Source: Chamaelirium japonicum (taxonomy: Eukaryota; Streptophyta; Magnoliopsida; Liliales; Melanthiaceae). From it: a DNA stretch of 64,000 bases. Position numbers and translations under genes: made by a program. The stretch is from contig OX393549.1 of NCBI GenBank assembly GCA_947650365.1, positions 38,335,098 to 38,399,097 on the forward strand. The letters run 5' to 3'. Below the pieces are notes generated by a model, which was not told the origin of the DNA, did no database searches, and worked only from the letters and a program-made list of their open reading frames with translations. Positions 13,446-56,336 of this stretch are shown piece by piece (positions within the stretch are counted from its first letter, which is position 1; every line of letters begins with the position of its first letter).

Positions 13446-13789
13446 TCTATATAACATGGCACGACGGTTTTTTTCTGACTAGACAAAACGGTACACAACA
13501 AGCTGACTAGGACAAGCTGAGTGGACAAAAATGAACCAAAATCCCCCAATCACATCCCCCTAGCCCGCGACCCTGTGATCCCTATCCCCAAATATCGCTC
13601 CATTCCTGTAAAAATCTTCCAACCGTCCGATAATCCTCAGTCGTCTGATGCACAATATCTCCTCTGCGTTGCCCGATCCCTCAGCCCCCACGTTGCCTGA
13701 TCCCGCATCCCCCTAATTCCTGCCCCTCTCCTCTCTCATTCCTCTTTCTCAGCTCTCTCCCTCTTTCAATTTGGTAACCCAAAACTCTA

Positions 13790-14120
13790 TGATCCCACAG
13801 CCCCTTAATTCCCGCCCCTCTCCTCTCTCATTCCTTTCTCTCATCCCTCTCCCTCTCTCAATTTGGCAAGGTCTCATCCCCAAATCTCTCATCCGCACCC
13901 ACTCCTCTCTCATGGAACCCCAAATCCCATCCCCGAAATCTCGCAGCCCCCCGCGTTGTCCGATCCCGCAGCCCCCTAATTCCCGCCCCTCTCCTCTCTC
14001 TCAGCCCTCTCCCTCTCTCAATTTGGTAGCCCCAAAACTCTCATCCGCGCCCCTTTCTTATCAAACCGCAAATCCCAGCTCCAAATCACATCCCTTCTCT
14101 CTCAAACCCTCTCTCTTTCT
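13790..14120. repeat. Pyrimidine-rich imperfect repeat inside H1
   Basis: CCCGCCCCTCTCCTCTCTC followed by CTCTCAATTTGG occurs at about 13811 and 13981, with a weaker copy near 13720. It has no coding signal beyond CT-driven ORFs. Confidence 0.55.
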
Positions 14121-14175
14121 GATCGCCAAGAGAGATCGATCTACCCATCGCCACCGCTGCCCCTTCGCCTACCCA

Positions 14176-14176
<1 letters not shown>

Positions 14177-14249
<73 letters not shown>
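14177..14249. repeat. (CT)n microsatellite
   Basis: About 36 uninterrupted CT units. A related but shorter tract lies at 15131-15169. In both cases the sequence GAGAGATCGATCTA and CATCGCCACCGCTG is nearby, so a segment about 1.05 kb apart has been duplicated inside H1. Confidence 0.95.
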
Positions 14250-14253
<4 letters not shown>

Positions 14254-14339
14254 GATGGTTTTTTTATTCTGCTTTTGATGGCTGTTTTGATTTTGATGGT
14301 TGTTTTGAATCCTACTGATGTAATATTTGATGGTTGTAA

Positions 14340-15120
14340 TAAGGATTTCGAGCTGTGTAATAAGAACCCATTGTAAAAGAATTTCGAGCTCCAAATGGGC
14401 TTTGATTCTGATGGTTTTTTTTTGGTCGAAATCAATTTGTTCTTAGTATTTTGTATTTTTTCCGATTATATTTTGCAATGGATTTTGATTCCTACCGGTT
14501 GTAATCAATGGTTTTTTTTCCAGATTTATAGCTCTATGATCTGAGCCAATGGGTTACAACCAAAAAAAACCCATTTTGATCTATGTAAAAGAATTTCGAG
14601 TTTCAAATGGGCTTTGATTCCTATGGTTTTTTTTTTGTCGGAATCAATGTGTTCTTAGTATTTTGTATTATTTACGATTATTTTTTGGGATGGGCTTTGA
14701 TTCCTACTGGTTATAATCAATGATTTTTTTCAGATTTATTTTTCAGATTTACAGCTCTAAGATCTGAGCCAATGGGTTACAACAAAAAAAAAAAACCATT
14801 TTGATCTATGTAAAAGAATTTCGAGCTTCAAATGGGCTTTGATTCCTACTGGTTGTAATCAATGTTTTTTTTCAGATTTATTTTTCAGATTTATAGCTCT
14901 AAGATCTGAGCCAATGGGTTACAACAAAAAAAAAACCATTTTGATCTATGTAAAAGAATTTCGAGCTTCAAATGGGCTTTGATTCCGATGGGTTTTTTTT
15001 GTCGGAATCAATGTGTTATTAGTATTTTGTATTTTTTTTCGATTATTTTGTAATCAATGATTTTTTTCAGATTTATAGTTCTAAGATCTGAGCCATTGGG
15101 TTACAACAAATTCCAGCCTC
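14340..15120. repeat. Variable tandem repeat (140-225 bp units) in H1
   Basis: GTAAAAGAATTTCGAG followed by CAAATGGGCTTTGATTC occurs at 14373, 14585, 14810 and 14950 (spacings 212, 225, 140). Each unit also holds runs of T or A and the phrase ATCTGAGCCAATGGGTTAC. Unit length varies by loss or gain of internal pieces. Confidence 0.8.
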
Positions 15121-15128
15121 AAATCACA

Positions 15129-15172
<44 letters not shown>

Positions 15173-15943
15173 CGCACAGAGAGATCGATCTATCCATCGC
15201 CACCGCTGTCCCTCCACCTACTCAGGTTTTTTTATTCTGCAATTTGATGGTTGTAATAAGAATCATTGATGCCGATGTTTTTTTTTTGTTGTAATCAATG
15301 GGTTCTTAGTATTTTGTATTTTTTTTTATTATTCGATGGTTGTAATAACAATTTCGAGCTGTGTAATTTTTGGTTGTAACCCATTAATTCTTATGGGCTT
15401 TCATTCCAATAGGTTTTTTTTATCGTTGTAATCAATGGCCGATGGTTTTTGATCGTGCTCCACAAAAATGCTCTCTTTTTTTGGTCAGTTGATTTTGCAA
15501 AGGTATTTTTTTTCTTCGGGTCTTTTTTTTTTTCTTTTGATTCTAAAGGTTCTAATTGCAAAGGTTTTGATTGTACCCTTTCTCTGTTTTGTTTTTTTTT
15601 CTTTTGATTGTAAAGGTTTTGTTATATGACCCGCCACTGAGAACGCAGGTGGCTATTTGTTTCGTGCCATTATTAAATGCATCAGTATGCTTCCATGGAG
15701 ATTTGGAGAACAAATAATCCTTGCCTCCCAAATATATTTTTTTTCTTTTAGGAGAGGGGGGGGGAGAGAGAAATGTAATGAATACCCACGAGATTAGAGT
15801 TTTACTGAATTTGCCTAATGAATACTCCGTGCCTAATGAATTCTCTGAGCCTAATGAATAATTCAATAGATAAATTTATAAAGTTTGCTCCTTTTTTGTA
15901 TTAATTCGTCGTATTTATTCAAAACATAATGTTCATCCATTAG
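15121..15943. other. H1 interior: CT tract and T-rich DNA before the H2A exon
   Basis: Contains (CT)n at 15131-15169 and T-rich sequence repeating the TTGATGGTTGTAATAA theme. The stretch just before 15944 ends in CATCCATTAG, which looks like an intron 3' splice site, so the captured piece probably includes part of the H2A intron. Confidence 0.5.
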
Positions 15944-16157
15944 ATATTGGAGCTGGCGGGGAATGCGGTGAGGGACAACAAGAAGACGAGGATCGTGCCC
16001 TAGCACATTTCAACTAGCGGTGAGGAACGATGAGGAGCTGTCGAAGCTGCTCGGCACCGTCACTATCTCCAACGGCAGCGTGATGCCCAACATCCACAAC
16101 CTCCTCCCCAAGAAGGCCGGGGCCTCCAAGTCTGCCCCTGCTGATGATGAGTTCTAG
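15944..16157 (+). pseudogene. Histone H2A C-terminal exon captured by Helitron H1
   Basis: H2A is a core histone that packs DNA in nucleosomes. The translation matches the conserved C-terminal half of H2[19 protein letters not shown], then HI, then after a one-base insertion near 16012 the segment [10 protein letters not shown], then [13 protein letters not shown], ending SAPADDEF and TAG at 16155. The Arg of the usual RIVPRHIQL segment is a TAG here, and the inserted T shifts the frame. The first half of H2A (helices 1 and 2 of the histone fold) is absent. The exon starts right after an AG, consistent with capture of genomic DNA at an intron boundary rather than of a spliced copy. It lies in the same direction as the Helitron. 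About 170 bases of apparent 3' UTR follow. Confidence 0.9.
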
Positions 16158-17139
16158 AACCCCCTATGCTTCTCTTATCGCTTTCATTTGATTTAACTAG
16201 GTCTGTAGATTGATGGTGGGTGGTGATGTCTGTAAGTGTTTGGTTATGTTCTCAGTCTTCTAATGTTTCTGTAGTTTGGATGGATGCTGGATTTTGTGAA
16301 TGGAAGTTTAGAGGATCCTTCTTCTCTTTTCCATTTTTTTTTTAGCTTTTTAATGCATTAACTTACTTTGAAGTGGAAAATAATATATCTCCAGATTTCA
16401 TTATCAGATTGTTCCAATATATTAGTCGATGTTGATCTTGAGCTAAATTTCACAGGGGGAGGGGCAAAGTGTAATTTACCATACCACTTCATAGCCGTTT
16501 GATGGACCATACTTGATGATCACAGTTGTCTGTTGGAACCATATCCGATCCATGATTCGCACTTATCCCCAAAATGGACAAACCGAGTGCAATTTTGTTA
16601 CTGAATTGATTTGCTGTGTTTGCTTACGACCCAAAAAAGGGTACAAAAAATGCACTACACGATATGGCTGAAGCAAAAGCAGTATTTTTGCTACCTGATT
16701 GATTTGCTACACTTGCTTGCGGCCAATCTTGGTGTGCCACGTCATTCATTTAAAGGGCACGATTTGGCTATAAGCAAGTGCGGCAAACCCACCGTGTATC
16801 TAAAATACCTTCTTGCTTGCGGCCAATCTTGCTTTGCTGTCGAAAGCTGTTGTTGCTGTATCGATAGGATGTGGATGTCACTGCCGAATATGGTCGCTGT
16901 CAAACAATTTTTGACTCCACCGAAAATTGGCTCCCCGCCAAAATTGTTTTGTTGCCGAAGGTAGCCGTCCGAGTACAGGCATTGTTCAGGCAATTTGCTG
17001 CTACTTAGGCCGGATGTGTTTTTTAGCGGCGGTGGCGGTGACTGTCGATGGAGGATGTGAGAACTCCGAACATTACCCTGGGGGTGTTGCCACCGAAGGC
17101 GACCGTTGCATTTCCAAAGCTGTCGAAGGTGGCCATTAA
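16158..17139. other. H1 interior after the H2A exon
   Basis: Up to about 16330 this looks like H2A 3' UTR. The rest contains GCCGAAGG/CCGCCGAAA-type motifs that become dense near the H1 3' end. ORFs at 16611-16964 (plus) and 16742-17176 (minus) show no domain. Confidence 0.4.
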
Positions 17140-17310
17140 ATATTGTCACCTTCCATAAAATAATGTCATCGTTCATGAAATATTGTTATCACCCTCAAAA
17201 TATTATTCTCTCCATCGAAATATTGTCGCCGCTCTCGAAATATTTTGTTGCCACTTTTAAAATATGTCACCTACCTCGAAATATTGTACCCGTCCTCGAA
17301 ATACTTTGCA
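17140..17310. repeat. CGAAATATTGTC short tandem array in H1
   Basis: Six to seven degenerate units of about 24-28 bases, each with a CTCGAAATATTGT or CATGAAATATTGT core. A partial hairpin-GCACGGGC motif (about 17317-17335), like the Helitron 3' end, follows directly. Confidence 0.7.
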
Positions 17311-17357
17311 TGTCGACAAGCACGGGCCACCAAAACGGCCCGGTGATTAGTTAAATG

Positions 17358-17360
<3 letters not shown>

Positions 17361-17402
<42 letters not shown>

Positions 17403-17646
17403 GCGTGTCTGTGTTTGTGCTCGCGCTAAATGGCTACCAAAACGGCCCGGCGATTTGGTTACCTCACTCACACTCGGCAGCCTCTCAGCCCACAACTACC
17501 ATACCCACCATTTAGGCTTGACCCATTATGAAAAATAATAATATAAAATTATCCCATTTAGAATTTTTGCCTTAGGCCTTAGTTTGTGTTGAGATGGCCC
17601 TGCTCTCTTGCCCACTCTCTCTCTCTATCTATCTCTCTTTTCCCCA

Positions 17647-17698
<52 letters not shown>
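17361..17698. repeat. Two (CT)n tracts in the 3' part of H1
   Basis: CT runs at 17361-17391 and 17651-17698. The sequence between them carries AAAACGGCCCGG twice (about 17333 and 17439). No gene. Confidence 0.85.
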
Positions 17699-17701
<3 letters not shown>

Positions 17702-17754
17702 TTTCTCCCCCCGGGGTAGGGGAGGTGGGGGTTGGTTGGTCAAACTGAAGGCTC

Positions 17755-18252
17755 CCGCTTCATGCCAATTGGCACGGGCATGCCGAAGGCAATCAGGTGT
17801 GTTGTCGTCGCATACGACGAATGGGGTGGGGTGGTGATGCCCGGGAGGTGTTTAACTTTTCTTTAGACACTTGATTTCTCTCGCTGCATTGTTGACAGGT
17901 GTGTTACCGCCGAAGGCGGCCCACTACAGTGCCGACGGGCACGGGCATGCGATGGGTTCAACGGATGGCTCTGATCAAGACACCCATGATGGTGAGTTGC
18001 AACGAAAAAAAAAAGAATAAATATTTAAATGGGTCTTACCGAGTCTTAGTGGTTGTCGGTTCGTTGGGGAGGGCCGGTGTTGTCGCCGAAAGTTTTTTGT
18101 TGCCGAAGGTGGTCAGGTGCGTTGTCGCCGAATACGACGTTGTGGGTGGGGGTGGTGATGCCCGGGGGTGTCCTGCCTAGCTTTTTTGCCGACAGTTGTG
18201 TTGCCGCCGAAGGCGGCCCGCTGCAGTGCCGACAGGCACGGGCATGCACTAG
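17755..18252 (+). repeat. Duplicated Helitron 3'-terminal modules
   Basis: Three hairpin-plus-GGGCATGC modules stand in a row. TGCCAATTGGCACGGGCATG is at about 17762, GTGCCGACGGGCACGGGCAT at about 17929, and the terminal copy is at 18226-18252. The stretch from the second to the third, with CCGCCGAAGGCGGCCC before the hairpin, recurs at a 297-base offset. Only the last ends CTAG followed by T. Confidence 0.75.
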
Positions 18253-18358
18253 TCCATTAACAGGCAATAAAAGAAATATGCTTATAATTCCTTTTTTTCT
18301 CATATAAAGCAAATACAAATGCAATGACTTTTACTTGCTTTTACAATTAGCATTTTCT

Positions 18359-19128
18359 TTTTTCTTTTTTTTTTTTATTCATGGAAAGGGGAGGTCAACT
18401 GACCTTCGAGAGACGCTACAATCCGGCGCAGCCAACAAAAGCGCTAGCAAACAGACAACCACCATCACCGGGTGGAACAAAGAAGCATAAACCCCCAACC
18501 ACTTAACACACCACACACCACCGCTCGCTGGCTGGAAGCACCGCACAGATGGGCCGCAGCACAACCGCACGTCGGCGGAGACAACACACTGCTCACTAGT
18601 GGAAAAAAAAGGGGGAAAAAAAAAAACCAAAAAGACGCCAAAAAACACCACCCAACATCTCGGCATATAAAATGAAGAGGCGACGCCGATCTGCTCCTCC
18701 AGCTCCGATCCAACCGCCTCCGCCAAAGCGCCACCGGGATCCATTCCATTGTTGCAAAGGAGGGGACCTGGAAACCCCATCTTCGGAACCTCCGCCGCCG
18801 ACGGGCCCGGGGCCAGATTTGCCACACCCGCCGCAGACCGCCGGAGAATGCCATCCCGAAGCCGTCGGAGGCCGGTGAAAGCAAGCAGAGAAGGGAATCG
18901 CACCGTCCCAGATAGACGAACACAAAATTACCGCTGTCAGATACCCCCTATCTACAAGAGGAGGGAAGGGGGCTCCAGATTCGTACCCCTATGCGATCCG
19001 CCTGCATCCCGGCCTCCTCGGAGCCACCGGCGACATCCGAGAAGGCCAAGAGACGCTCTCCGAACCCTAAACCAAGGGGGGAAGAGCCTAGCCACTACTC
19101 ATGCAATAGACCACAATGAGCATTTTTC
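18359..19128 (-). mobile_element. Poly(A)-tailed retroposon, minus strand, source unknown
   Basis: On the plus strand it begins with a T-rich run (18359-18377). On the minus strand it therefore ends ...CTTTCCATGAATAAAAAA. The flanks carry similar direct repeats: AGCATTTTCT (18349-18358) and AGCATTTTTCT (19129-19139). Together these indicate target-primed retrotransposition. GC-rich minus-strand ORFs (for example 18379-18903) overlap in several frames and show no known domain, so this may be a LINE 5' region or a processed transcript. Confidence 0.6.
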
Positions 19129-19139
19129 TAACCTAGAAC

Positions 19140-19519
19140 ATTGGTGTCTAGGTCAGGAAAGTGAGAATGCTTCCAACAAAAATAATTCAATGACCGCAAT
19201 AACTTTCATAACAAAAAAAGTGGACTTCAAATATAAATCACAAGATCAAGTTTCATTAGAAGGCAAAAAATAAGGCATATTCAGATAGAACGTGTGCGGA
19301 TCTTCCATGGCATACCCTTCAGAAAACCGTACTCCTCGAAAGCCACTTTGGGCTCGGGACAGGTTTGGGTACACCCTCACAAGCTCAGGCCAGGCCCGGG
19401 CTTAGGATGGCCTGACCCAAACCCGTCCCGGGATTGGGATCTCCCGATCCAAACCTGGCTTGGACGACTCCCAAAAAAATCGAGACCCTACAACAGTTCA
19501 ATCGTCAATGTAAATGTCT
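19140..19519. repeat. GGGCC/GGCTT-rich dispersed repeat segment
   Basis: The part from about 19342, with CACCCTCACAAG, GGGCTTAGGATGGCC and CGACTCCCAAAA, recurs at 41820-41920 and 63310-63410. Each time the same LINE tail follows to the right. No gene. Confidence 0.65.
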
Positions 19520-21230: not shown

Positions 21231-21239
21231 CTCAATGCT

Positions 21240-21739: not shown

Positions 21740-21744
21740 TTAGG

Positions 21745-25785: not shown

Positions 25786-25809
25786 TGTTTTCTCTTAGCT
25801 GTCTGTTCT

Positions 25810-28800
25810 GTGGTGTGTGTTTCTGACTTTACGATGAGATTTCTATCCTGGAACATTATAGGATTGGGTTCTATTGAGAAGAGGAAAGCTGTTAATCTCT
25901 ACGTTAATGTTCATTCCATAGATGTCTTGTGCCTGCAGGAAACGAAGTGTGCTACCCCTAGTCAGAGTTTTCTGCGCTCTTTAGGTGGTGGCAGGATCAT
26001 GAAGTGGGAATGGTTAGATGCCTCCGGTACCGCGGGTGGCCTACTTACAGGATGGCACGAATCTGAATTCAGTCTGATTGATATCCGTAAAGGAGTTTTC
26101 TGTCTGTCAGTAGTTTTGAAATCCTCTGCTTCTAATGTTCTCTGTGTTGTGAGTAATGTCTACGGACCAAATGAGTACGGGCTTCGGCCGGCCCTTTGGA
26201 GTGAGCTTAGAGACATCCGGCAGAATTTCCCGGGCCCCTGGGTCATTGGGGGAGACTTCAACATCACTCGATTCTCCTACGAGCGGAGTGGAGCCATGGG
26301 GAGGAGACGAGACATGCAAGATTTTTCTGAGGTCGTTCGTGATCTCTCTCTTCTGGATCTACCTCTTAACAACAGGAAATTTACTTGGAACAACAAGAGA
26401 GACTCGCCCATTTTCGCCAGACTGGACCGTTTCCTTATTTCTGACGACTTTGACTCCCATTATCCAAAGGTGACGCAGAAAGCTCTCACAGCTTTCATCT
26501 CCGATCACACTCCTATTCTTCTTGATTCGCATTCGGATAATTTTAAACAGTGTAAGCTTTTCCGCTTTGAGGCGATGTGGCTCGAAGATCTTGAGTTTCC
26601 AGACCTGGTCATAATCTGGTGGGCTAGAACAGGGGACAATTCTAATTCCGCCAGGAACTGGAATGCGAAGACTAGATTTCTGAAGCTGAGAATCAAAGAG
26701 TGGGAGCGCAAGAAGTTTGGTAATGTAATGGCTCAGAAGAAGGATCTTCTGTCTAAGATGGCCTTTCTCGAAGGTAAAGAAGAAGTTTCTCCTCTTTCGG
26801 GAGCTGAGAAGAAACAACTTTCAGATTGGAAAGAAGACCTTAGTGCGGTTCTTATTAAAGAAGAGGTGATATGGAAGCAGCGCTCTCGAGATAAGTGGAT
26901 TAAATTGGGGGACAGTAACACGGCTTACTTCCATAAGATTGCGAATAACACCAGACGCAGAACCGCCATTCTTTTCTTGAGAGACGGGAACAATATTCAG
27001 ACGTCTCAAGAAGACATTTCTAATAGCGTGTCTCGCCACTTCCAGAAGTACTTCGTGAGGAATGGAGTTGAGCGGACTGATGTTGATTGGGAAGGATTAG
27101 ATCTTCTCAAGCTAGACAGCGTGGACGACCTGGATAGACCTTTCTCTACCGAAGAGTTTAAACAGGCAGTCTTCGGCATGAAGGCGGAGGGAGCTCCAGG
27201 GCCGGACGGTCTTCCCATTCTGTTCTATCAGAAGTTCTGGGATGTTATTAAAGATGATCTTTGCCAGCTTCTTTTCGATTTCTTCCAACACAAGATATCT
27301 CTGCACAGTTTAAACTATGCCTGGATTACTTTGATTCCTAAGAAGGTGGGGGCTGAAACCATCCATGACTACAGGCCTATCATCCTTGCGAATTGCATCT
27401 ATAAGATTATTGTGAAGATCCTAGCTAACCGTATGGCGAGCAAAATCAATGATCTTGTCAACAAGAACCAAACAGCTTTCATTAAGGGAAGGCTGATTTT
27501 AGATAGTGTAGCTACGGTGCAAGAGCTTATTTTTCATATCAAGGAGCGTAAAGAAGAATGTATCATCTTGAAGATTGACTTTGAGAAGGCTTTTGACCGA
27601 CTGAACTGGAGCTTCATTCTGAACACCCTCAGAGCTAAAGGCTTCTCGGACAACTGGATTCGCTGGATCTGGAACTGCTTCTCTACTTCCACCATTGCGT
27701 GTTTAGTGAATGGTCATCCGGGCAAACAATTTAAGACCGGTAGAGGAGTCAAACAGGGCTGTCCTCTCTCGCCATTCCTCTTCATCCTCGCTATGGATGT
27801 GTTCGATGCCATGCTAAGAAGAGTGGAGAATAGAGGTCTGATTACTGGTGTCGGGGACCCCAGATGGAGAACTGCGAACCTCCATTTTGCGGATGACACA
27901 AATATTTTTTGTGCGGCGAAGAAGGAACAGATCAGCCTCCTTAAGATCCTTCTCTACTCTCTAGAGCTGGTTTCCGGGCTGAAGGTGAATTTTTCGAAGA
28001 CCTCTCTTTTCCATTTTGGGATCGATGAGCAGCTTGCGTCTTCCTTAGCTGCTGTGCTGAATTGCCGTAGAGACTCTTTGCCCACAAAATATCTCGGTCT
28101 TCCTCTGAATGACAACAGAATTAAGAGAAGCGACTGGTTCAAAGTGATTGAAAAAATGGATATCAGGCTAGCTGGGTGGAAAGGTAGACACCTCTCGCTG
28201 GGAGGCCGTTTGACGCTTATCAATGCAGTTCTCACGATGATTCCGTCCTATCATCTCTCTTTTTACCTTATGCCTAAATGGGTGATCGCCAAGATCGACT
28301 CGATCAGAAGCAACTTCCTGTGGAAAGGGGCGGACGCTAGTGTGAAAGCTTATCATCTGGCTAAGTGGGGTGTGGTCTGCAAGTCTAAAGAAGAAGGAGG
28401 GCTGGGCGTCATCAATCTAGCGGACCACAAGAGGGCACTTCTGGGCAAATGGTGGTGGCGTCTTCAAAACGATCAAGGTGATCACTGGAGCTCAGTGATT
28501 CGTGGGAGATACTTCAAGAGATTCAGGCCGCAACAGGTGAGGAGTAGACTCTCTGGGAAAATATCGCCATTTTGGAAGGGTATCCAGAAGATAGGCCAGA
28601 TCTACAAATGTGGGACTATGCTGCGTGTGAGGAATGGCAAGTCTACTCTGTTCTGGGAGGATAGGTGGCTGGTTGAGGGTCAGCTCAAAGATTGGTATCC
28701 AGACCTTTACGAGCTAGCTTGGGACAAGAAAGCGTTAGTGCGATCTCAATGCCAAGTTTCCAACTCCTTAACCATCTGGGATCTGAAATTCCGTAGGGAC

Positions 28801-29466
28801 ATTCCGATCTTTCTCCAATTTCAAGTTCGAGAATTGTTGGACCTGCTACAACTTATTTCTTTGGAAGATGCTGAGGATGAGACAACCTGGAGACTGACTC
28901 CCTCTAACACCTTTTCTACGAAATCTTTCTATAACTTCATTAACAAGGGAGGGGTGATTTGCCCTATGGCTCGAGCTTTGTGGAAGACCAGAGCGCCTCT
29001 TAAGATACGGATTTTTATGTGGCTGATGATTAAGAAGAAGTTGCTGACCAAGTCTAACTTGCTCCGTCGTGGTAATCCAAAGGTGACCGACGCTGTTTGT
29101 GTCCTCTGCGGCCATGGACGTGAAGAGGTGAACCACCTGTTTCTGCATTGCCCTTTTGTCCAGAGTATTTGGGATCCCCTGAGGAGAGGCCTGAAGATTA
29201 AAGGTGCGCCAGGTTCAGTGTTCTCCTTATGGACTGTCTGGAGGGAGAAGCGCATTAAGAAGAGACTCCGACACAGCTGGGATCTGGTGGTTATGGCTGT
29301 GTGCTGGAGTATATGGATAGAGCGGAATTGCAGAATTTTTAGACAGAAGAGTTCGGATTCGGAAGCTGTCAAGAATCTGGCTAAAGAGAGACTGCTTCAG
29401 TGGAAGGTTGCCTTGCAGGGGCAGAAACTTCAGCAACTAGATAACATTTTGTGTAATCTCTTTTGA
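25810..29466 (+). CDS. LINE ORF2: AP endonuclease and reverse transcriptase (intact)
   Basis: This protein nicks target DNA and copies LINE RNA at the nick. The frame is open for 1218 codons. The ATG at 25834 (MRFLSWN) fits the family start better than 25810. The endonuclease part has SWNIIGLG, LQETK, GGDFNI (about residue 150) and SDHTP. The reverse transcriptase part has LIPKK, YRPI, KIDFEKAFDRLNW (about 590), GVKQGCPLSPFLF and the active-site FADDT (about 695). Near residue 1095 is a zf-RVT finger, CVLCGHGREEVNHLFLHC. No RNase H follows, so this belongs to the LINE group that ends after zf-RVT. All expected motifs are present, so the enzyme could be functional although its ORF1 partner carries a stop. 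Confidence 0.95.
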   Translation: MVCVSDFTMRFLSWNIIGLGSIEKRKAVNLYVNVHSIDVLCLQETKCATPSQSFLRSLGGGRIMKWEWLDASGTAGGLLTGWHESEFSLIDIRKGVFCLSVVLKSSASNVLCVVSNVYGPNEYGLRPALWSELRDIRQNFPGPWVIGGDFNITRFSYERSGAMGRRRDMQDFSEVVRDLSLLDLPLNNRKFTWNNKRDSPIFARLDRFLISDDFDSHYPKVTQKALTAFISDHTPILLDSHSDNFKQCKLFRFEAMWLEDLEFPDLVIIWWARTGDNSNSARNWNAKTRFLKLRIKEWERKKFGNVMAQKKDLLSKMAFLEGKEEVSPLSGAEKKQLSDWKEDLSAVLIKEEVIWKQRSRDKWIKLGDSNTAYFHKIANNTRRRTAILFLRDGNNIQTSQEDISNSVSRHFQKYFVRNGVERTDVDWEGLDLLKLDSVDDLDRPFSTEEFKQAVFGMKAEGAPGPDGLPILFYQKFWDVIKDDLCQLLFDFFQHKISLHSLNYAWITLIPKKVGAETIHDYRPIILANCIYKIIVKILANRMASKINDLVNKNQTAFIKGRLILDSVATVQELIFHIKERKEECIILKIDFEKAFDRLNWSFILNTLRAKGFSDNWIRWIWNCFSTSTIACLVNGHPGKQFKTGRGVKQGCPLSPFLFILAMDVFDAMLRRVENRGLITGVGDPRWRTANLHFADDTNIFCAAKKEQISLLKILLYSLELVSGLKVNFSKTSLFHFGIDEQLASSLAAVLNCRRDSLPTKYLGLPLNDNRIKRSDWFKVIEKMDIRLAGWKGRHLSLGGRLTLINAVLTMIPSYHLSFYLMPKWVIAKIDSIRSNFLWKGADASVKAYHLAKWGVVCKSKEEGGLGVINLADHKRALLGKWWWRLQNDQGDHWSSVIRGRYFKRFRPQQVRSRLSGKISPFWKGIQKIGQIYKCGTMLRVRNGKSTLFWEDRWLVEGQLKDWYPDLYELAWDKKALVRSQCQVSNSLTIWDLKFRRDIPIFLQFQVRELLDLLQLISLEDAEDETTWRLTPSNTFSTKSFYNFINKGGVICPMARALWKTRAPLKIRIFMWLMIKKKLLTKSNLLRRGNPKVTDAVCVLCGHGREEVNHLFLHCPFVQSIWDPLRRGLKIKGAPGSVFSLWTVWREKRIKKRLRHSWDLVVMAVCWSIWIERNCRIFRQKSSDSEAVKNLAKERLLQWKVALQGQKLQQLDNILCNLF

Positions 29467-32072: not shown

Positions 32073-32929
32073 CGTTATCCCATTATTGAAATGGTTGAAG
32101 ATTGGCCTGGACTTCGGTCCCATGTATTTCCCCCGATTTTCCAAGTAAGCATTTGTGTTTTTTGTTACTCTCATCCTCCATTAGTTTGCAGAAAGAGAAA
32201 ATATTTTTTCCCATCAAGGGTATTAAGAGGTATGTACAATGAAGGCATCCTGAGACCTCTTTCTTGAAAAAATACTTCAGGAGGAATCGATTCAACTTCC
32301 ATAGTATTTACTACTAGATGGGCAAGAAATGCAGTCTAAAGTGATATTGGGCATCTATCTATACTAATCTAGTAGAGCTGAGCCTTCCTACATCACATGT
32401 CAGCCCCTTCTTAAAGAAAATTTTTAAGGATCAAACAGACTATAACCTCAAAAGATTAAATAGGTTAAAATCAAAACTGAATCACAACCGTCCATTACAC
32501 CCAGTCCGATCAGTAAATCACACTCACATGTAAAGAACGTGTGTGATTTGGTTTTCGCTTCAATCGCAATCGTTCGTTACACTGAGCCCGATCGATGAAT
32601 TGCATTCAGTCCTAAATGGTATGCAAATAAAGGATTATGATTCAGTACTGGCTTCAACCTATCTGATCCTCTAAGGTTATAACCTTGAAAGAAAAAAAAA
32701 AAGAATGGCACGCGAGACGTTTAATCAACCCCATGCATACATTTGATTGTCATATTCAATACATGTTGTTAACATATTGTATTATCTTTGTATAAACTTA
32801 TATGACTTTACATTTGTGTGTGATATATACTTTGCCTATTGGTTCGATAGAAAGTATTCTATTCTATCTCTAAGCCTTAGCATCTTTCTCCCTCTCTCTC
32901 TCTCTTCTTTTCGGTTTGTCACATGGTAT
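32073..32929. other. Duplicated spacer; holds the empty site for Helitron H2
   Basis: AT-rich with no gene. The CAATACA / TGTTGTTAAC junction at 32763/32764 is the uninterrupted counterpart of the two flanks of Helitron H2 in copy B. Confidence 0.6.
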
Positions 32930-33940: not shown

Positions 33941-36900
33941 ATGGAAGCCGTTGGCCCAGTGTTGGAGACAGTCAAGTGCTTTGGGGCTCCCCTTCTTCGT
34001 TGAATTGGCTATGTCAAAAACCTGAAAAAGAATTTCAAGAAGCTCAATGCAGAGGCTGAAATGTTGTATGCTATAAGGCGTGACAAGCAAACAGAAGTAG
34101 ATAGATGCAGTCCAGAAAAGGTTCGTAGCTGCCAATTTGAAGCTTGGGTTAATGAAGTTGAGCAGATTGAGAACCAAACAAATGCAAGTGAAGAAGAGTT
34201 CAAGCAGGAGAAGAAGTGTTTCAGAGGGTGGTGCCCTGATATTTGCTCGTGCATGAAGCTAGGTAAAGAAGACATGGTGGATTTGATCGATAGAATCTCC
34301 GATCTTAAGAAGTTTGATGGTGCAGTCATGATCGATGCGCCTCCAAGTACAGTCGAGGAGATACCTGTGCCAAGAATAGAAGCGAAAACATCAATAGATA
34401 CCTTACGGAAGGTAGTAAGATTCATAGAAGATCCAGGCATAAAAAAGATCGGCATTTGGGGCATGGGCGGTGTTGGAAAGACAACGCTGATGAAGAATAT
34501 AAACAACCTACCAGAAATAGCTCAGATGTTTGATATTGTCATATGGGTAACCGTCTCAAGAGATTGTAGCTTAAGAATGGTGCAGAATGAGGTTGCACAA
34601 AGGTTGTCACTAAGTCTATCAGATGGCTTGTCTGACGATAGAGTTTCCAGGAGGTTATACAACAGATTGAGAAACAGCAAGTATCTGTTGCTTCTAGATG
34701 ATGTTTGGGAGATATTGAATCTTGAAGAAGTGGGAATTCCAATTCCTAATGAAGAGAATGGATGCAAGATATTATTGACTACTAGAGATCTACAGATATG
34801 CCACAAGATGGAAACTCATAAACAGATCAGTGTGGAGGTATTGTCCGTTGAAGAAGCATGGGAATTATTCCGTGCGAAATTGGGTAGTGTTGTCGATTCA
34901 CCCGAAATCCAGGCATTGGCTAGAGAGGTTGCCGAGGAATGCGGAGGCCTGCCGCTTGCGATTATTCTAGTCGGAGGGGCTCTGCGAGAAGAGGGCAATG
35001 TTCGTGTCTGGAAGAATGCGTTGCGAGAGTTGGGGTCAGCAGCGACATCCCAGATAAAAGATATGAAGGAAGCAGTATTTAAGCGATTGAGATTCAGTTA
35101 CGACAGATTAAAGGGTGACAGACAAAGGTGCTTCTTGTATGGTGCATTGTACCCTGAAGATGCCGAAATACTTGTAGCCGAATTGATAGAGTATTGGAGG
35201 GCTGCAAAGTTTTTAGAAGATGACGGTACTGTGGAGAGCTTAGCAGAGGCTGTTGATGACGGCCACGCTATACTGAAAGACCTTGTAGCTGCTTCTTTGC
35301 TGGAGAGATGCCAAGGAGATGATAGACGGAAGCGTGTGAAGATGCATGACGTGATTCGTGATCTTGCACTGAGAATTACATCCATAGAGGCCGGGGGAGG
35401 CAATAATAATAAATTCTTGGTGAGAGCTGGCAAGGGGATACAAACCCCTCCAGGAGAGGAGCAATGGAAAGAATGCAATGTTATTTCTTTGATGCGGAAT
35501 GAACTAAAACGGTTGCCCGAGCGGGCTGTTTGCCCCGTTCTCTCGACACTGCTATTGCGAAGTAATCTTGGCCTAGAAGACATCCCTGAGTTGTTTTTCG
35601 AGGCCATGCCCGTGCTCCAAGTTTTGGACCTAAGCTACACCAGTATCAGGTCCTTACCACCATCCATCTGCAACTTGGTCCATCTTCGTGGAATGTACCT
35701 AAATTATTGTGAGTATTTGGTTGAACTCCCACCCGAAATAGGAGCAGTGAAGGCACTTGAGGTGCTTCAGATTGGAGGGATCAACACAGCGATTCGAGGT
35801 CTGCCGATTATGCTGGGGGAATTGACTCGTCTAAAGTGCTTACATGTGCAGTTTTCCAGAGCTAGAGGTGATGGAGAGATGATGATTCCGCAGGGAATAG
35901 TATCGAGACACTCTTTATTGGAGGACTTGAGGATAGAGTGGAGGGATAGTGAGCTGGATTGGGATAGAAATCTGCAGGAAGACTACGTGATGGAGGAGGT
36001 TTGCAGTTTGACGGAACTGACTCGTCTTCATTTCTGGTTTACAAGAGTGGGATATCTCAAATGCTTTATAGACAAGAGTGGACCATGGCAGAATAGAAAA
36101 CTATCAACTTTCGCGTTTAAAGTCGGCGCTCATCCTGAATATATTTTTTCTGGCACTCCACCAGTGGGCTGAATCTTGCAGTTTGTGGGTGATGATGGTG
36201 CCCCTCCTCAGGCGATCAAGCAGGTTCTGTGGCGTGCCGAGAGTTTTTTGCTATGAAGGCACAGCAGCATCCAAAATCTGTTGGGGAAATTTGGCGTGGA
36301 GAACATGACTCATCTTAAATATTTAGAGGTTGGAGAATGTCATAGAATGGAGAAAATATCGATAGACAGGAATTGTTCATTCCCTAACCTCGAGCAATTG
36401 TACATTGTTGAGATCAAGGTTCGAAATCTCCATTTCGGTGGAAATTTCGACCTTCTGGATATGGAAATATTTCGTGGAAATATTTCGACAGTGTGGAAAT
36501 ATTGCAATTTTGTAGTAGAAATGGTGGAAATATTGATTTTTTGATGGAATTTTTTAGTGAAACTCCGAATAGTCATAAACCAAGTATAGATACACACTTT
36601 GGAACACTCAAATAATATTTGTACCCTATCTAGGGGTGTCGAGCTTCACATAACATGTATTCAATGTATTGAGGCTGTGTGTCTTGTGCAATCTTATTTG
36701 GTTCGGTTTTGATATATTTTTCAAATATTTTTTAATATTTTTTTTGGATAAAAATATTTTTGAAATAAAGATTAGTTGATTGTTAAAATAATGTTTCAAA
36801 CGATTTTGAAAGCGGACTTAAAACAAGAAAGTTATGCAAATTTGAAATTGTGCAAAAGTTATGCTGAAATGTGAAACTCTGTTTTTTTACTAAGTCCGAA

Positions 36901-43960: not shown

Positions 43961-44418
43961 TATTCTTCACGTGATTTTATTGCACATATATAGAGGTAAA
44001 TGGACATTTTCCAACCGGAGGGACCTACTATTAAAGCATCTTTTTGTCGGTCCTTATCACTAAATTGATATATGGTCAAGGACCTTAGGCACATTACCCT
44101 TAAAAGAAAGGGGGGTTTCCTTAAAAAACAAAAAAAAGGAAAGATATACACGAATCTGCTAAATTATGCAACGAATGGCTACAAATACACGTATTTAAGC
44201 ATTAAGAACAAGTTGAGTTTGGTCTTAGTTACGGATTACAAAATAACAGTAGCTTGATTTACCTGCTAAGCAATCATTCACATCTTATATATAAAAAAAA
44301 AGGTAAATTACATATTTTTAGATTACCCTCTGAAATAAAAAACCGAACAAAATACCCCAGTGTACTATGAAATATCTTCACTTAGCCGCCTACGAAGAAG
44401 TGCTAACATGTTAGAAAA
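43961..44418. other. AT-rich DNA; left arm of a probable MITE
   Basis: No gene. AAACCGAACAAAATACCCC at about 44340-44359 is nearly the reverse complement of GGGGCATTTTGTTCGGTTT at 45004-45022. Helitron H3 may therefore sit inside an older foldback element with GGTAAATTACAT / ATGTTATTTACC outer ends (44301 and about 45471). Confidence 0.45.
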
Positions 44419-44957
44419 TAGTACATGCCCGTGCCTGTCAGCACTGCAACGGGCCACCTTCGGTGGCAACACATATATCGGCACTGTAGCAAGCTACCTT
44501 CGATGAAAATACACCTGAACGTCTTAGGCAACAAAACACTTTCGACGACAACACCAGCATTCATAGGGACACTCATTTACTTGCTCGTTCCGAAGTGGGC
44601 ACCTTTGGCACGACCAACTCCACCTCCCCCTATAATCAATCAATCACAGCTGTCTCTATTTGAATAGATTCCTCGAGATCGACCTGATGGTTTAGGACAA
44701 TCGAAATTTCAGCAGGCAGGTTTATAGCCGCTGATGCGAACAAAGATCACGGGAGGAACGGTCAGGTTTAGTGCAGTTTAAATGGGCCGGAATTTGAAAC
44801 CAAGGGGAGGGAGTTGGTTGACGGGGAAATAGAAATCGTGCGTTGATTTTTGAATGAATGGTTGGATCTATTCGGTTCATTTTTGTCCAGTCAGCTTGTC
44901 CTAGTCAGCATCCATTTTGTCTAGTCAGCACAAAACCGACGTGCCATGTTATGCAGA
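44419..44957 (-). mobile_element. Short non-autonomous Helitron H3 (539 bp)
   Basis: On the minus strand it starts TCTGCATAACATGGCACG, followed by CGGTTTTGTGCTGACTAGAC, and ends GGCACGGGCATGTACTA. The end is preceded by the two hairpins also seen in H1 and H2 (CCACCgaaGGTGG and a GTGCTgacAGGCAC-like stem). Flanks are T at 44958 and A at 44418 on the plus strand, so on the minus strand A precedes and T follows. It carries no coding sequence and looks like the minimal form of the family. The last three bases are CTA rather than CTRR. Confidence 0.8.
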
Positions 44958-45792
44958 TGGTAAATGGTCATGTTTTATGTCAATGGTTAACTCCTCTAGT
45001 TCAGGGGCATTTTGTTCGGTTTCTTGGTAGAATTTTTGCATACACCTCACTGACAAATAAGATTATTATGAATATCCCCCTTACTTTTTAAGTTTTTTTT
45101 ATCTCGATTTTTGCCAAAAAAATCAGCTATTTTTTTTACCATTTTACCCTTGGTCTGCTAATCTTTCTGCATGTCATCATCATCGGTGTCCATGCAAGTC
45201 GGTGTTGTCCTTCCTTCTCGTCATCCTCCCCATCCTGTCTCCTTCCGATGACTGTGGCATTCACGACCACCAATCACAGCCAAGGGTAAAATGGTCATAA
45301 AATTACACATGTATGTTTGCAAAAATCAAGACATGTGAGGGGGTTATTCATAAAACTTTAAAAGTGTGGGGGTTATTTATAATATCAATATTTGTCAAGG
45401 TGTGGGTGCAAAAATCTATTTTTAGTTCGGGGGGCAAGGTGAAACTAGGCAATAGTTTAGGGGGGTTTCATGTTATTTACCCAAAAAAAGATGCAATCAT
45501 TCACAGCCAATACATAAACAGAGATAATAGATAGCCATCACATTTTGTTCAAGGTATCTAAAGCATCTGAAAGGAATTATGTGATACATAGCACGCTAAG
45601 CAAGTCAGAAGGGAGAAGATTATAATCTACAATCTTCAATTATTCCAAAACCCAAAGCATCAGAACCACACATAGCTTCAACATCACATGACTTGCATCT
45701 AGTAACCGTGCGGGAAGAGCCACCCACGGACCTGAGGACATAACATGATCAATAAAAGGTTACAAGGAATTCGATCAATAAAAAAAAAGGGA
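44958..45792. other. AT-rich intergenic DNA; right arm of the probable MITE
   Basis: Contains the GGGGCATTTTGTTCGG arm (45004) and GGGGGGTTTCATGTTATTTA (about 45463). A single ACATGATCAATAAAAGGTTA motif at 45743 foreshadows the tandem array at 46332. No gene. Confidence 0.4.
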
Positions 45793-46140: not shown

Positions 46141-46190
<50 letters not shown>

Positions 46191-49162: not shown

Positions 49163-49186
49163 AATGTCACTGTGAGTAGTCCCACA

Positions 49187-50550: not shown

Positions 50551-51894
50551 ACACAGTTAACCCAGGCCTGGTGGTTGTCAGTATGACTGACGACGTTCCG
50601 GATGCTAGGCATAGCACCGGAAAGTGTGTGGTGTTATAGATGACAAGTCATCAAACCCTAGTCAGATGATCGATCGGGATCTGACGGTGCTCCCCACCGC
50701 CCGATTCGTATCATGGCGCCAATAATAGGAGGGACTGAGGATTATCGGAGTATAGTAGAGAACAGGTTACGAGGGAGTAACATAAGTTTAGGATCACTAG
50801 AGTTCAACTCGCATCGCACTCTAGGTGGCTACGCGGGTTAATCGGATTAGGGCTGATTAACGGAACTTTCGGTGTGTCACCGGAACAGTTAATCAGGGAT
50901 CCGGTTGGAGCTAGAGATCCCGAACCCTGAAGGTTCCAACCTGTCGTTGTGTATAGGAATTATTCCCCGACCTAGTTGGATACGTTGGATGCGAAATAGC
51001 GCGATGGGGCGCAAGCCCGGAGCCTAAGAACCTAATTCACATGTGTTACGGGTCGTAGGGGTATTTTGGTAAATACTGAAATATGGCTCAGAACACATTG
51101 AATATGGATCTTAGAATGAGCGAAATAATTCCAGGAGCTCATAGGCGCTGACGTAACTCGATTCCGAATAGCGCACCTTGCTCAGTCTCTCTTTCAGTTT
51201 TCCACTTTTCGTGAAGGGCGTTTTCGTCCAGGCTTCACGATAGACATTGGAAATCCCTAAAAACCGACCCCCCTCTATCCTAATCTATCTAGGGCTGGCC
51301 CTAGCTTCCTTGAAGACATGGGAGACTGGCCCTATAAGAGAATAGGGAGAGGGAGGGGCCGGCCCAATGCTCCCTCTCCTCCAAAAATCCGAACCCCCCC
51401 TTTAGCCTCCTCCTTTGTGGTTTCGGCCAAGGAAAAAAGAGGAAGAAGAAGGGAGAAGAAAGAGGAAGGAAGGAGAAGAAAGAAAGGAGAAAGAGGAGGA
51501 GAAAATCTCATGGCTCGCCATTGTCTTCGCAACGAATTCCTCCGTCGGCTCGTAATCCTTGCACTCAGAGACGGGATTTTAAGGATTCTTCAATTCGCAA
51601 AGGACAAGGTGATATCCGACAGTTTCCCTTGCGATTCAAGTGCAGTTCTTCATCGTTCCGTCATCTTCGGATCATAGATCCAAAAAGGTATGATGATTCT
51701 AAACACCTAACTAGATGCATACATGTCTTCCGTAGATCATAGTATGCCTCTAGGGTGTCCGCACATATGCTAAGATCGTAGATTTGCATGTAGATTGTTT
51801 TGTAGAATTAATTGTAATGAAACATACACCGTATGATCTTTGGATCTATCTTTTGCTTTCGCTGCGACTCTGATAAGTGGATCCAATTCCAACA
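50551..51894 (+). mobile_element. 5'-truncated Copia LTR (partner of 9668-11606)
   Basis: Starts at ACACAGTTAACCCAGG, matching 10275 onward, and runs to the same TTCCAACA end (51894). The left 0.6 kb of the LTR is missing. No polypurine tract or pol adjoins it. Its right end touches the first base of the duplicated block (ATTGTGGCAATG), so the left edge of duplication B is defined by this LTR. Confidence 0.88.
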
Positions 51895-52786
51895 ATTGTG
51901 GCAATGAAATTAATTCTGGGTGTAAATATTTTTCTTAATAAGTACGTGTCCTTTACCCCGAATCCATTCCACCGCATCCTCTCACTCCGACCACCTTTTC
52001 TCTCTCCCTCTCTCTCTCTCTCTCTTGTAATGTTGTATTTTTCTATTTTCTGCCTCAAATTTATGCTGAGCGTGTTGGTCTCTCATGTCTGATGTTTGAC
52101 TTATGTGAAGCATGACTTTACAGTCTTTACCTTCTATTTCTTATCTTTGTTTTTTGAAAAAATGATGTTATCTGAAACCTTTCTGCCAACCTGACGTGGC
52201 ATGATCACACCCATCCCCGATGGGTCATCGCATTCAGCCCTTCTAGAAATTGTTGGTTGAAATTCATAAATATATTTAGTTTCTTTATATTGACCGGTAG
52301 GCGTACGGGTGGCTGGGATCAAATGCCAGTCATGTTTCGGTAAAAAAATAGTTTGAAAAATAGCATTGGGCTTGTTTTTTTCTATCATCAAATTAATTAG
52401 TATCACTCATATTTCTAACTTGAACTAACAAATATCATCTTTATTTTTCTTTTTTTTTTCATTCAAAACTATGTATCAAATTTTGCGCCTATCTCAGGTG
52501 GGATGTAGGACTACAAATGGATCACTCAATCATCGGTAAACCAACATGCAATCATTAGCAAATTTATACTCCATTTCGGCTAAAATTTGAAATGGTCGAT
52601 CCCGGCAATGGATGGTTCATCACTACGGTGTTGGGTCGTTAATCGGATTGTTTGGAGGAAGTTTCACCACTCCGGTTTAACTCATTTTTGTTAATTTGTC
52701 AGTGTATTCCATCCTTACGAGTGAAGATTATTGTACATCTAAAATAGGGTTTTCTCTTGAGATTTTGGTAGCGTTTAGCTTTGTCT
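51895..52786. other. Duplicated spacer, copy B
   Basis: Partner of 30645-31579. The CT tract here is only about 20-30 bases against 59 in copy A. No gene. Confidence 0.6.
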
Positions 52787-53301
52787 AGAGAGGAGGCTTT
52801 TCACTGATGGACGGATGGATCTTTTCACACCCAGGAGGAAGTAGCTAGTGGAGCGTGGGTTCTCGCGTCCACTGACGGGGTAGATACGGGAAGCGGCTGC
52901 AAAGAGGTGCCGGGTTTCTTCCGCATTTGCCGTGGAATTGTGGGCATTAAGGGAGGGTTTTGGGGCTCTGGTGGGACGTTGGAGCAGACAAGTGGTGATC
53001 CTTACGGACGCGGCGCGAGCCATGGATGCATTAGTTTTGGGGAAAGGAATTACTGGAGACATAGCCATATACTTATTGAGTGCATATAGTGGTAGTGCCT
53101 AGAGGGGGTGATAGTTCGTTGGGTTTCTCGCACTGCGAATAGCACCGCAAATTGGTTGGCTAGAGAGGCTAGATTGTATGCAGTCGAAAGTGAGTGGACC
53201 TCTTCTTTTCCTAATGTTCTGTTGGCCCTTGTTTGTGAGGACCTAAAGGTCATAATGTAATGATCAACCAAGACTACCAAAAAAAAAGAGAGAGGAGGCT
53301 T
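52787..53301 (+). mobile_element. 5'-truncated LINE with RNase H remnant (copy B)
   Basis: Target duplication AGAGAGGAGGCTT at 52787-52799 and 53289-53301. Copy B preserves more of the RNase H end: WVSRTANSTANWLAREARL and then a run to ..CEDLKVIM and a stop at about 53260, followed by poly(A). This confirms the identity of the more damaged copy at 31580. Confidence 0.87.
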
Positions 53302-54012
53302 CGTTATCCCATTATTAAAATGGTTGAAGATTGGCCTGGACTTCGGCCCCACGTACTTCCCCCGATTTTTTAGGTAAGCATTTGTGTTTTTTGTTGCTCT
53401 CATCCTCCATTAGTTTGGAGAAAGAGAAATTATTTTTTCCCATCAAGGATATTAAGAAGTATGTACAATGAAGGCATCCTGAGACCTCTTTCTTGAAAAA
53501 ATACTTAGGGAGGAATCGATTCATCTTCCATAGTATTTACTACTAGATGGGAAAGAAATATGGTCTAGTGATATTGGGCATCTATCTATACTAATCTAGC
53601 AGAGCTGAGCCTTCCTACATCACATGTCAGCCCCTTCTTAAAGTAAATTTTTAAGGATCAAACAGACTATAACCTCAAAAGATTAAATAGGTTAAAACCA
53701 AAACTGAATCACAACCGTCCATTACACCCAGTCCGATCAGTAAATCGCACTCACATGTAAAGAATGTGTGTGATTTGGTTTTCGCTTCAATCGCAATCGT
53801 TCGTTACACCGAGCCCAATCGATAAATCGCATTCAGTCCCAAATGGCATGCAAATAAACGATTATGATTCAGTTCTGTCTTCAACCTATCTGATCATCTT
53901 GGGTTATAATTTCGAAAGAAAAAAAGATGAATGGCGTGCGAGACGTTTCATTATCCAGCGCTATGCATACATTTGATTGTCATATTCAATACATGTTGTC
54001 ATATTCAATACA
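53302..54012. other. Duplicated spacer left of Helitron H2
   Basis: Partner of 32073-32763. CATATTCAATACATGTTGT is locally doubled just before the Helitron (about 53981 and 54000), a change not present in copy A. No gene. Confidence 0.55.
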
Positions 54013-54265
54013 TAGTGCATGCCCGTGCCTTCAGCACTGCAGCGGGCCGCCTTCGGCGGCAACACATCTAACGGCAACACCCCCACTCACCCCCACCCCC
54101 TAACCCACACACACACACACAACCCACCCAATGGTGGAAGAGAGAGAGAGAGAGAGAGGGGTGGTCGGCCCCGGTCTATACAGCAAAGTCTTTATATAGG
54201 CAGGACAACGGCACCGTGTTAGGAGTTTTTTTTTTTTCCTGCTAGGGGCTGCTCGTGATTAAAGT

Positions 54266-54520
54266 TAGGGGTGGCAATGGGTCGGGTCGGATGGGGTTTA
54301 TGTCGTGTCTAGTTTCGGATCGTGTCCAAGACCCCTAGACCCTGACCCAACCTGTTTAATTAATAATGTCTAGACCATAAACCCGTACCCAACCCATTTA
54401 TACACTGGTAGACCTGATAAGACCCGTTAGACCTGTTTACCACACGGATCTATTCAATTGACCCGACTTAATCGGGCCAACCAGAGATGACCCGATAAGA
54501 CCCGCTGGTACTACATACTA
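54266..54520. mobile_element. hAT-like GGGTC-rich fragment inside H2
   Basis: TTAGGGGTGGCAATGGGTCG start, then GACCC and GGGTC units like those at 22495-22812 (both contain CATAAACCCGTACCC-like text and TACCACACGG.TCTATTCA). A nested fragment. Confidence 0.5.
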
Positions 54521-55001
54521 CAGTATTATCGTTTATACTACAGTATCAATGAATCTTAAATGGTTTTGTTAAGTCAACATTAGTATCTATTTTCGTTGAT
54601 GTTCGTAAACCCTCTGTATATTATTGGAGGACTTTGTGAAAAAAATGAATCTGATGATACTTCGGCCCTTCACATATTTTTTAACCCTTAACGGAATTCA
54701 ACGATTTCAAAAGCGTTGGAATCCTCGTTTAACCCTCCACAACTTTTATACAGCAACCTTTGCCAAACATCGGCGCGCTTGGCTTGTTTGCAGCCCTAAT
54801 CAATGGTTTAGCCGATGTATTGGACCTCAAATGCGGTGGTTAGCAATTGCGGGGGTCTAGTGGCTGATCAAGAACCAAATTGGGTTGTAATCATCTGTTT
54901 TTAGCCAAAATTAGTCTAAGTTTTATAGGTAAGAAAAAAGTAGAGCATGCATTTATAGGTAAAACAGAAATAAAAAAGAGATTATTCCACCCACAAAAAA
55001 T
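54521..55001. other. H2 interior with a 78-codon ORF of unknown nature
   Basis: The plus ORF at 54624-54860 has no recognisable domain. The rest is AT-rich. Confidence 0.35.
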
Positions 55002-55400
55002 TCAGATAGGGCAAAATATAATCGCATAATCAGCCCCTGCGGCACATGTGTTTTCACCGGTAACATCGTTTGGATAGACGAAAGCCAGCGGACACGATCT
55101 CTTGTAGAAGGCCGTGTACTTGGTGGGCTTGCACTTCACCGTACCGGCCCTCTCCCCTTCTCGAAGCAGCAGTTCTCCGGATCCTTCAGCGCCTGGCACG
55201 CCGACATGCATGCCACCGTACCCCCGCCGGCCCCCACCACCCTCAGCTTCGGCGGGCAGAGGGCAACGTCGGCCGGACAGGTCGCCAGACTGCACCCTAC
55301 AGGGGATCCCCCCTGCGGCACCACCGCTACGGAACCGATCTCCTCCTCCACTTCCATGGTCACCGAAGAGGTCGGCAGGGCCCGTACGTTGCAGTTGACC
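55002..55400 (-). pseudogene. Thaumatin-like (PR-5) protein fragment captured by Helitron H2
   Basis: Thaumatin-like proteins are secreted, disulfide-rich defence proteins. On the minus strand one frame gives CPPKLRVVGAGG..VACMSACQALKDPENCCF. After a frameshift near 55155 another gives VKCKPTKYTAFYKRSCPLAF, then YPNDVTGENTC, then GADYAIIFCP and a stop at 55002. The cysteine spacing, the C.PT.Y..F...CP.A....D...TC segment and the GADY..FCP end are those of the family C-terminus. The signal peptide and first half are not visible. Direction equals that of the Helitron, as for H2A in H1. Confidence 0.87.
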
Positions 55401-55419
55401 CTTTCCGGAGCGGCCTGAT

Positions 55420-55676
55420 TTTAGAGAGAGATAGAGAGAGAGAGAGAGAGAAAGAGAGACCCTGCAGGCGATCCAGGAAGGAGGCTCACCTTGTAACCAT
55501 CCCGTCTCCTCCTCCGCTTCCGCCTCCGTCGCCGGCCAGGTCACCGAAGAGGTCGGCAGGGCCTGATTTTAGAGAGAGAGAGAGAGTGATGGGGAGAGAG
55601 AGAGAGAAATGGGGAGAGAGAGACGGGAGGGGGGCAGTTAGATCGCGAGGGGGGCGGTTAGGTCGCGAGAGATGGG

Positions 55677-55736
<60 letters not shown>

Positions 55737-55983
55737 TGGAGGCGGGGGGGTCAGATCGGGAGAGACGGGAGGGGGGGGGGCGGTTAGATCGCGAGGGGGC
55801 GGCGGTTAGGTCGCGAGAGACGGGGAGAGAGAGAGAGAGAGAAATCTGGGGGCCGGGGGGGGGGGGGGTGAGATCGTGAGAGACGGGAGGGGGGAGGGGG
55901 GGGCGGCGGTTAGATCGCGAGAAGGGGGGGGGGGGGGGGGGCGGTTAGATCGCGAGGGGGGGGGGGTTAGGTCGCGAGAGACG

Positions 55984-56041
<58 letters not shown>

Positions 56042-56060
56042 GGGGCGGGAGGTTCAGATC

Positions 56061-56112
<52 letters not shown>

Positions 56113-56220
56113 CAGGGGAGTGGTTAGATTGTAAGGGGTGGGGCGGTTTAATCGCGAGACGGGGAGAGAGAGAGAGAGAGGGAGAGAGATCAGGGGGAGG
56201 GGGTTAGATCGGACGGTGAT
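55420..56220. repeat. (GA)n and poly(G) low-complexity tract in H2
   Basis: GA runs near 55680-55735, 55985-56037 and 56062-56110, alternating with G runs and GGTTAGATCGCGAG units that recur at least six times. Part (55350-55420 against 55540-55570) repeats the CCGAAGAGGTCGGCAGGGCC text. Arg/Glu-rich ORFs are artefacts of this composition. Confidence 0.9.
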
Positions 56221-56336
56221 CTACTCTCCGAATACGTACAATCAGATCGGATGGACAACTTTTCTCCAAAAGTTGTCTCCGAAAGTTGTCTAGTCAGCAC
56301 AAAAGCGCCGTAACATGTTATATAGATGTTGTTAAC

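Follow-up and report, generated by a model that had tools for sequence, protein, structure and literature searches.

Three segments of the Chamaelirium japonicum genome, H1, H2 and H3, all lying in a 64,000-nucleotide stretch (C1:38335098-38399097 of the 1.52-Gb assembly, hereafter the window) and read there in full, are almost certainly (probability about 0.97) non-autonomous members of one large family of canonical (Helitron1-type) Helitrons. A first-pass annotation of the window had already regarded them as Helitrons, and this assignment is supported by the pairing of their ends, by empty sites showing that all three were inserted exactly between A and T without duplication, and by a decayed relative that has the same ends together with Rep and helicase domains. 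In addition, H1 and H2 contain captured gene fragments.

H1 (13446-18252, plus strand, 4807 bp) has the structure A/TC...CTAG/T, the slash marking the element boundary, and H2 (54013-56326, minus strand, 2314 bp) and H3 (44419-44957, minus strand, 539 bp) have the structure A/TC...CTA/T. The ends of all three were read directly, and H3 belongs to a subfamily of 0.52-0.59 kb. All three elements begin with TCT, in agreement with the TC start of canonical Helitrons; the 5' start is TCTATATAACATG in H1 and H2 and TCTGCATAACATG in H3, and TGACTAGAC follows soon after in each of them. The common 3' end consists of two short stems and GGCACGGGCATGCACTA(G). Stem 1 is GCCGCC-GAA-GGCGGC, with the variant GCCACC-GAA-GGTGGC in H3, and stem 2 is GTGCY..GGCAC, followed by GGGCATGYACTA. 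These 3' termini occupy 18203-18252 in H1 (plus strand; stem 1 18203-18217, stem 2 18226-18239, CTAG end), 44419-44467 in H3 and 54013-54060 in H2 (both minus strand, both stems present). In H1 the stem GTGCC/GGCAC sits 9 nt before CTAG, canonical Helitrons having a short hairpin about 10 nt from the 3' end. The three members with common termini recognized in the first-pass annotation proved real, except that the limit of H2 had been placed at 56336, which is 10 bases too far out. The proposed common motif GCTGACTAGAC has exact copies in two elements, H2 and H3, but H1 has TTCTGACTAGAC.

The 3' ends by far exceed chance. With up to three mismatches allowed, the 3' 17-mer was found at five places in the window, compared with a mean of 0.05 in shuffled windows: at the three element ends (18235 on the plus strand, 44419 on the minus strand with one mismatch, and 54013 on the minus strand) and as two degenerate copies within H1, at 17771 and 17938. 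The 5' 14-mer occurs exactly at 13445 (plus strand) and 56314-56327 (minus strand), and with two mismatches at 44945-44958 (minus strand). When three mismatches are allowed this string is not rare (12 occurrences in the window, 6.84 expected, 12 being reached by 5 of 100 shuffles); therefore the evidence lies in the exact copies and in the pairing. Genome-wide there are 2376 exact copies of the 3' 17-mer (reversed control, 0) and 3306 of the 5' 14-mer (reversed control, 4), and the next base after the 3' 17-mer is G, giving CTAG, in 2077 of the 2376 cases. To determine pairing, 70 3' ends were sampled from the 4.2-35.7 Mb part of C1, and the exact 5' 14-mer was sought within 6 kb upstream of each. 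It was present in the same orientation for 26 of the 70, whereas the control arrangements gave 2, 1 and 0, and the genome search for paired ends suggested by the first-pass annotation has thus shown that the two ends recur in the right order and orientation.

Location between A and T without target duplication, claimed earlier from the window, was demonstrated by paralogous empty sites for each of the three elements: insertion had occurred exactly between A and T, with no base duplicated and none lost. For H1, an empty copy at C1:38256835-38257132 (98%) reads GAACAGTATA/TCCAGTAACAGG, and in a second one at C4:19311013-19311311 (96%) C replaces the T. The empty copy for H2, C1:38313856-38314155 (98%), reads GTTAACAACA/TGTATTGAATATG, and that for H3, C1:38442719-38443022 (94%), reads CATTTACCA/TTTTCTAACATG. 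None of the three has terminal inverted repeats, as is characteristic of canonical Helitrons. The H3 insertion also has a second occupied copy, C1:38302538-38303380, in which 532 of 539 columns equal H3; on the simplest reading the duplication behind the empty copy would have come first, then the arrival of H3, and then the duplication that gave this second copy. Because the second occupied copy ends CTAT/TTTT, the missing final G of H3 may reflect decay of the last base.

Flanks of further members were studied in a non-random sample, drawn from 30 loci of 3 kb and 20 loci of 9.9 kb, each picked because it has an exact 3' end within the first part of C1, plus the window. In this sample 33 two-ended intervals were delimited, of which four ending at an inner 3' end were dropped, leaving 29 members. 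Of the 29, 22 have A as left and T as right neighbour, and the sequence 3' of the family ends is AT-rich. The two flanks did not match each other in 23 of the 33 intervals and matched over 2-10 bases in ten; nine of these ten matches are runs of T and A, and one (L039) is ATCTA beside a stacked 5' end. Two local features of the insertion sites were noted. H3 is flanked by a 22-nt inverted repeat (44337-44358 and 45004-45025, 91% complementary), and as the joined flank has many genomic copies, this suggests that H3 was inserted into a small inverted-repeat element. A 19-bp tandem duplication beside H2 (53977-54013) seems to predate H2, since the empty copy L057 has it too and the copy within the window at 32636-32909 contains just one unit.

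A genome search with PF14214 (Helitron_like_N) gave 150 scored matches from 315 candidates, those listed being all above the curated cut-off, and 0 matches in 14 control genomes. One match (C1:14863839-14864381) is bracketed by two family ends, the 5' end at 14855063 (L052) and a CTAG/T end at 14868923 (L024), and C1:14855063-14868923 would be one 13.86-kb element with family ends on both sides. Eight pieces of this relative were searched separately, and three, in L051, scored above the curated Pfam cut-off: Helitron_like_N (3e-45), PIF1 helicase (8.9e-75) and Pif1_2B (3.9e-18). The other five pieces gave no Pfam match, or matches below the cut-off only. Full-length canonical Helitrons encode an HUH-type Rep together with a PIF1-type helicase, and the motif strings PHMH and KYIHKYIYKG are present in the relative. 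A member encoding Rep and helicase, which the first-pass annotation had recommended looking for, was therefore found with both family ends, though in decayed form. H1 shares two blocks with the tail of the relative in L024 (16702-16902, plus strand; H1 3257-3372, 91%, and 3385-3457, 86%), and the Rep-helicase pieces of L051 had no match at 1e-4 in L001-L050 or in the window. When the tail was searched in the genome (40 of 2002 candidates scored), 16 other places matched its end among the scored matches. At three of these (C344, C2:54.9 Mb and C3:39.8 Mb) one of the listed PF14214 matches lies at most about 7 kb upstream on the same strand.

By analogy with Helraiser and other Helitrons, the elements would have moved by a rolling-circle mechanism. 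The Rep-helicase of full-length relatives with the same ends, used by H1, H2 and H3 in trans, would nick at the TC 5' end, and one strand would be peeled off, stopping at the 3' stem, the putative terminator, and the CTAG end. The element would then be joined into an AT-rich target, between A and T, with no duplication of target bases. Fragments of a histone H2A gene (in H1) and of a thaumatin-like gene (in H2) were picked up, and the H2A piece seems to have spread later.

Several observations weigh against this interpretation. The family is known from sequence, no movement having been observed, and the 3' ends of H2 and H3 are CTA/T rather than CTRR/T. No exact 5' 14-mer was present within 6 kb upstream of 44 of the 70 3' ends, and 7 of the 29 delimited members lack A or T on one side. 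The relative is decayed, with stops and frame changes (it was read except for about 4.1 kb near the 5' end, between L052 and L051), and 13 of the 16 tail places have no Rep match among the PF14214 matches listed. As to the two hairpins described in the first-pass annotation, both stems are present, but the predicted folding of whole ends does not surpass that of shuffled sequences (z -1.12, -0.08 and -0.50). Stem 1 was recognizable in 51 of 60 3' ends; at 50 changed pair positions, pairing was broken in 32, kept with a one-sided change in 17 and kept with a two-sided change in 1, so that covariation in these 60 ends lends no support beyond the presence of the stem.

The 3' ends of H1 and H2 carry a terminal CACTA, which could point to CACTA (En/Spm) or other transposons with terminal inverted repeats. 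CACTA elements are bounded by CACTA...TAGTG in inverted orientation and duplicate 3 bp of the target. The 5' end found here is TCTATATAACATG and not CACTA, the two ends form no inverted repeat, and the three empty sites lack a duplication. These empty sites already refute this explanation; since the relative with the same ends has Rep and PIF1 helicase domains, we consider its probability practically negligible. Helentron or Helitron2-type elements likewise belong to the rolling-circle group and have a hairpin at the 3' end, but their targets are TT or TTTT/T according to the consulted part of PMC5148889. With A/T targets and CTAG at 2077 of 2376 ends, assignment to such elements is highly improbable.

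A further explanation is that the ends are alike through convergence or recombination, so that there would be no single family moved by one enzyme. It is in line with the mostly different interiors, with the existence of 5' sub-types and with the low 5' agreement between the relative and H2 (44 of 62 columns) or H3 (48 of 65). The 3' agreement with the relative, by contrast, is 59 of 60 columns for H1, 55 of 61 for H2 and 52 of 60 for H3, and H1 combines 50 of 63 equal columns at the 5' end with the interior blocks mentioned above. We regard convergence or recombination as unlikely, and one Helitron family remains the preferred interpretation.

Within this family 5' end sub-types exist (AACATGGCACG, AACAAGGGACG and AACATGTTAGGGC), and some other members begin with TA. 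At least 100 interior bases are common to 57 of the 528 pairs among the 33 intervals, one of these pairs being L038, a single element to which two ends were assigned, and another the H1-H2 pair, which rests on CT repeats. H3 is not unique: among 51 other loci, 13 have matches to 88% or more of its length, and matches over 150 bases show 75-83% identity. The interiors, described earlier as unrelated, do largely differ, except that H3 shares a subfamily interior and H1 shares blocks with the Rep-helicase relative. Likeness of copies beyond the ends, which the first-pass annotation would have taken as evidence against Helitrons, does occur (H3), but this argument was ill chosen, as Helitron sub-families do share interiors. 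The end string CACGGGCATGC does not occur in the small part of the Helitron literature that was covered.

H1 contains a fragment of the C-terminal part of histone H2A (15944-16157, plus strand; Pfam Histone_H2A_C, 2.9e-15 for the second part), broken by an in-frame stop and a frame change. In H2 there is a thaumatin-family fragment (55005-55288, minus strand; Pfam Thaumatin, 1.7e-07 and 5.5e-09) split across two frames. A genome search with the H2A segment, in which 40 of 75 candidates were scored, showed among the scored matches a 99% sibling on C8, at least 13 others matching over the whole or nearly the whole length at 85-93%, and six places matching most of the query at 72-75%; these six may be either genes or old copies. 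A partial H2A match (80%) at C3:39.77 Mb has a PF14214 match on one side and a family tail on the other, and at nine other places the H2A match adjoins a family tail on the same strand. No H2A match was found in L051 or L024 of the Rep-helicase relative. Apparently the H2A piece was captured once or a few times and then spread with the family, and, judged from the positions on C3, it is perhaps also carried by an element with a Rep domain.

H1 has an inner, partly duplicated 3' tail (17781-17950, plus strand) with both stems and GGCACGGGCATGC but without CACTAG. The same extra sequence comes after an inner complete end in four loci (L008, L038, L044 and L046), three of which have a second end 207-223 bases further on. 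This layout fits the end-bypass model of Helraiser, as presented in the consulted part of PMC4778049. Direct head-to-tail junctions, CACTAG/TCTATATAACATG, occur 284 times genome-wide as exact strings (control, 0); the junction string without the G occurs 43 times, some of these not being junctions (L037). A 5'-end-like sequence follows 8 of 47 CTAG ends. The loci examined contain nine junctions, and the upstream element was delimited for six: four join clearly different elements (no or partial similarity), and the remaining two lie in L045 and are joins within one subfamily (79-81%). As none of the six junctions joins near-identical copies, successive insertion is favoured over multimers. At about 1470-4090 of L045, the 0.5-kb subfamily forms a run of four or more members, with two direct head-to-tail joins. 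Adjacent Helitrons with a G/T junction are known in maize (excerpts of PMC2267711), and tandem insertions have been reported from bat, fly, rice and maize (excerpts of PMC5148889). Tentatively, the 5' end TCTATATAACATG might mimic an AT-rich target and turn old copies into landing platforms, which together with bypassed ends could give composites and raise the capture of host fragments, although we consider this rather doubtful.

Elsewhere in the window, two long and similar open frames (34061-36172 and 57813-60440, both plus strand) were found, which resemble nucleotide-binding leucine-rich-repeat (NLR) resistance genes. H2 and H3 seem to lie inside this duplicated NLR-like cluster, the copies of which outside the window seem to hold the empty sites. 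The product of an open frame of 1218 aa (25810-29466, plus strand) resembles the endonuclease/reverse transcriptase of a long interspersed nuclear element, and the sequence at 1330-2986 is tandemly repeated, its units measuring 77, 139 and 496 bases. An Rfam search of the window at gathering thresholds found nothing.

The gene-capturing HelA/HelB-type Helitrons of maize, as described in excerpts of PMC2267711, resemble the present elements in the TC 5' end, the CTAG 3' end, the 3' hairpin, the A/T flanks, the captured fragments and the head-to-tail neighbours with a G/T junction, but the end sequences differ, and here two of three elements lack the last G and two stems lie near the end. Non-autonomous Helitrons of rice and maize (excerpts of PMC2575219) share 5' TCT, 3' CTAGT, the 5' flanking A, A+T-rich 3' flanks and captured genes, but come from other species and belong to another family; neither histone H2A nor thaumatin appears in the beginnings of the captured-gene tables in that paper. 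Helraiser/Helibat of bats (excerpts of PMC4778049) has TC/CTAG ends, a 3' hairpin acting as terminator in Helraiser, an AT target and end bypass that adds flanking DNA, but Helraiser has been proven active in cells, whereas the present family is inferred from sequence.

Taken together, these elements are canonical Helitrons of a plant, with captured fragments. The kind is well known, and they represent a new family of it or at least new members. Stacking, bypass and capture are behaviours already known for Helitrons, and much of what was found is standard plant genome biology, but the case is unusually well proven, the region's own duplications having kept empty sites for all three insertions. 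It provides a base-exact example of Helitrons spreading gene fragments through a plant genome, and with thousands of ends and hundreds of junctions the family would be a good one in which to test target choice against multimeric intermediates as the cause of stacking.

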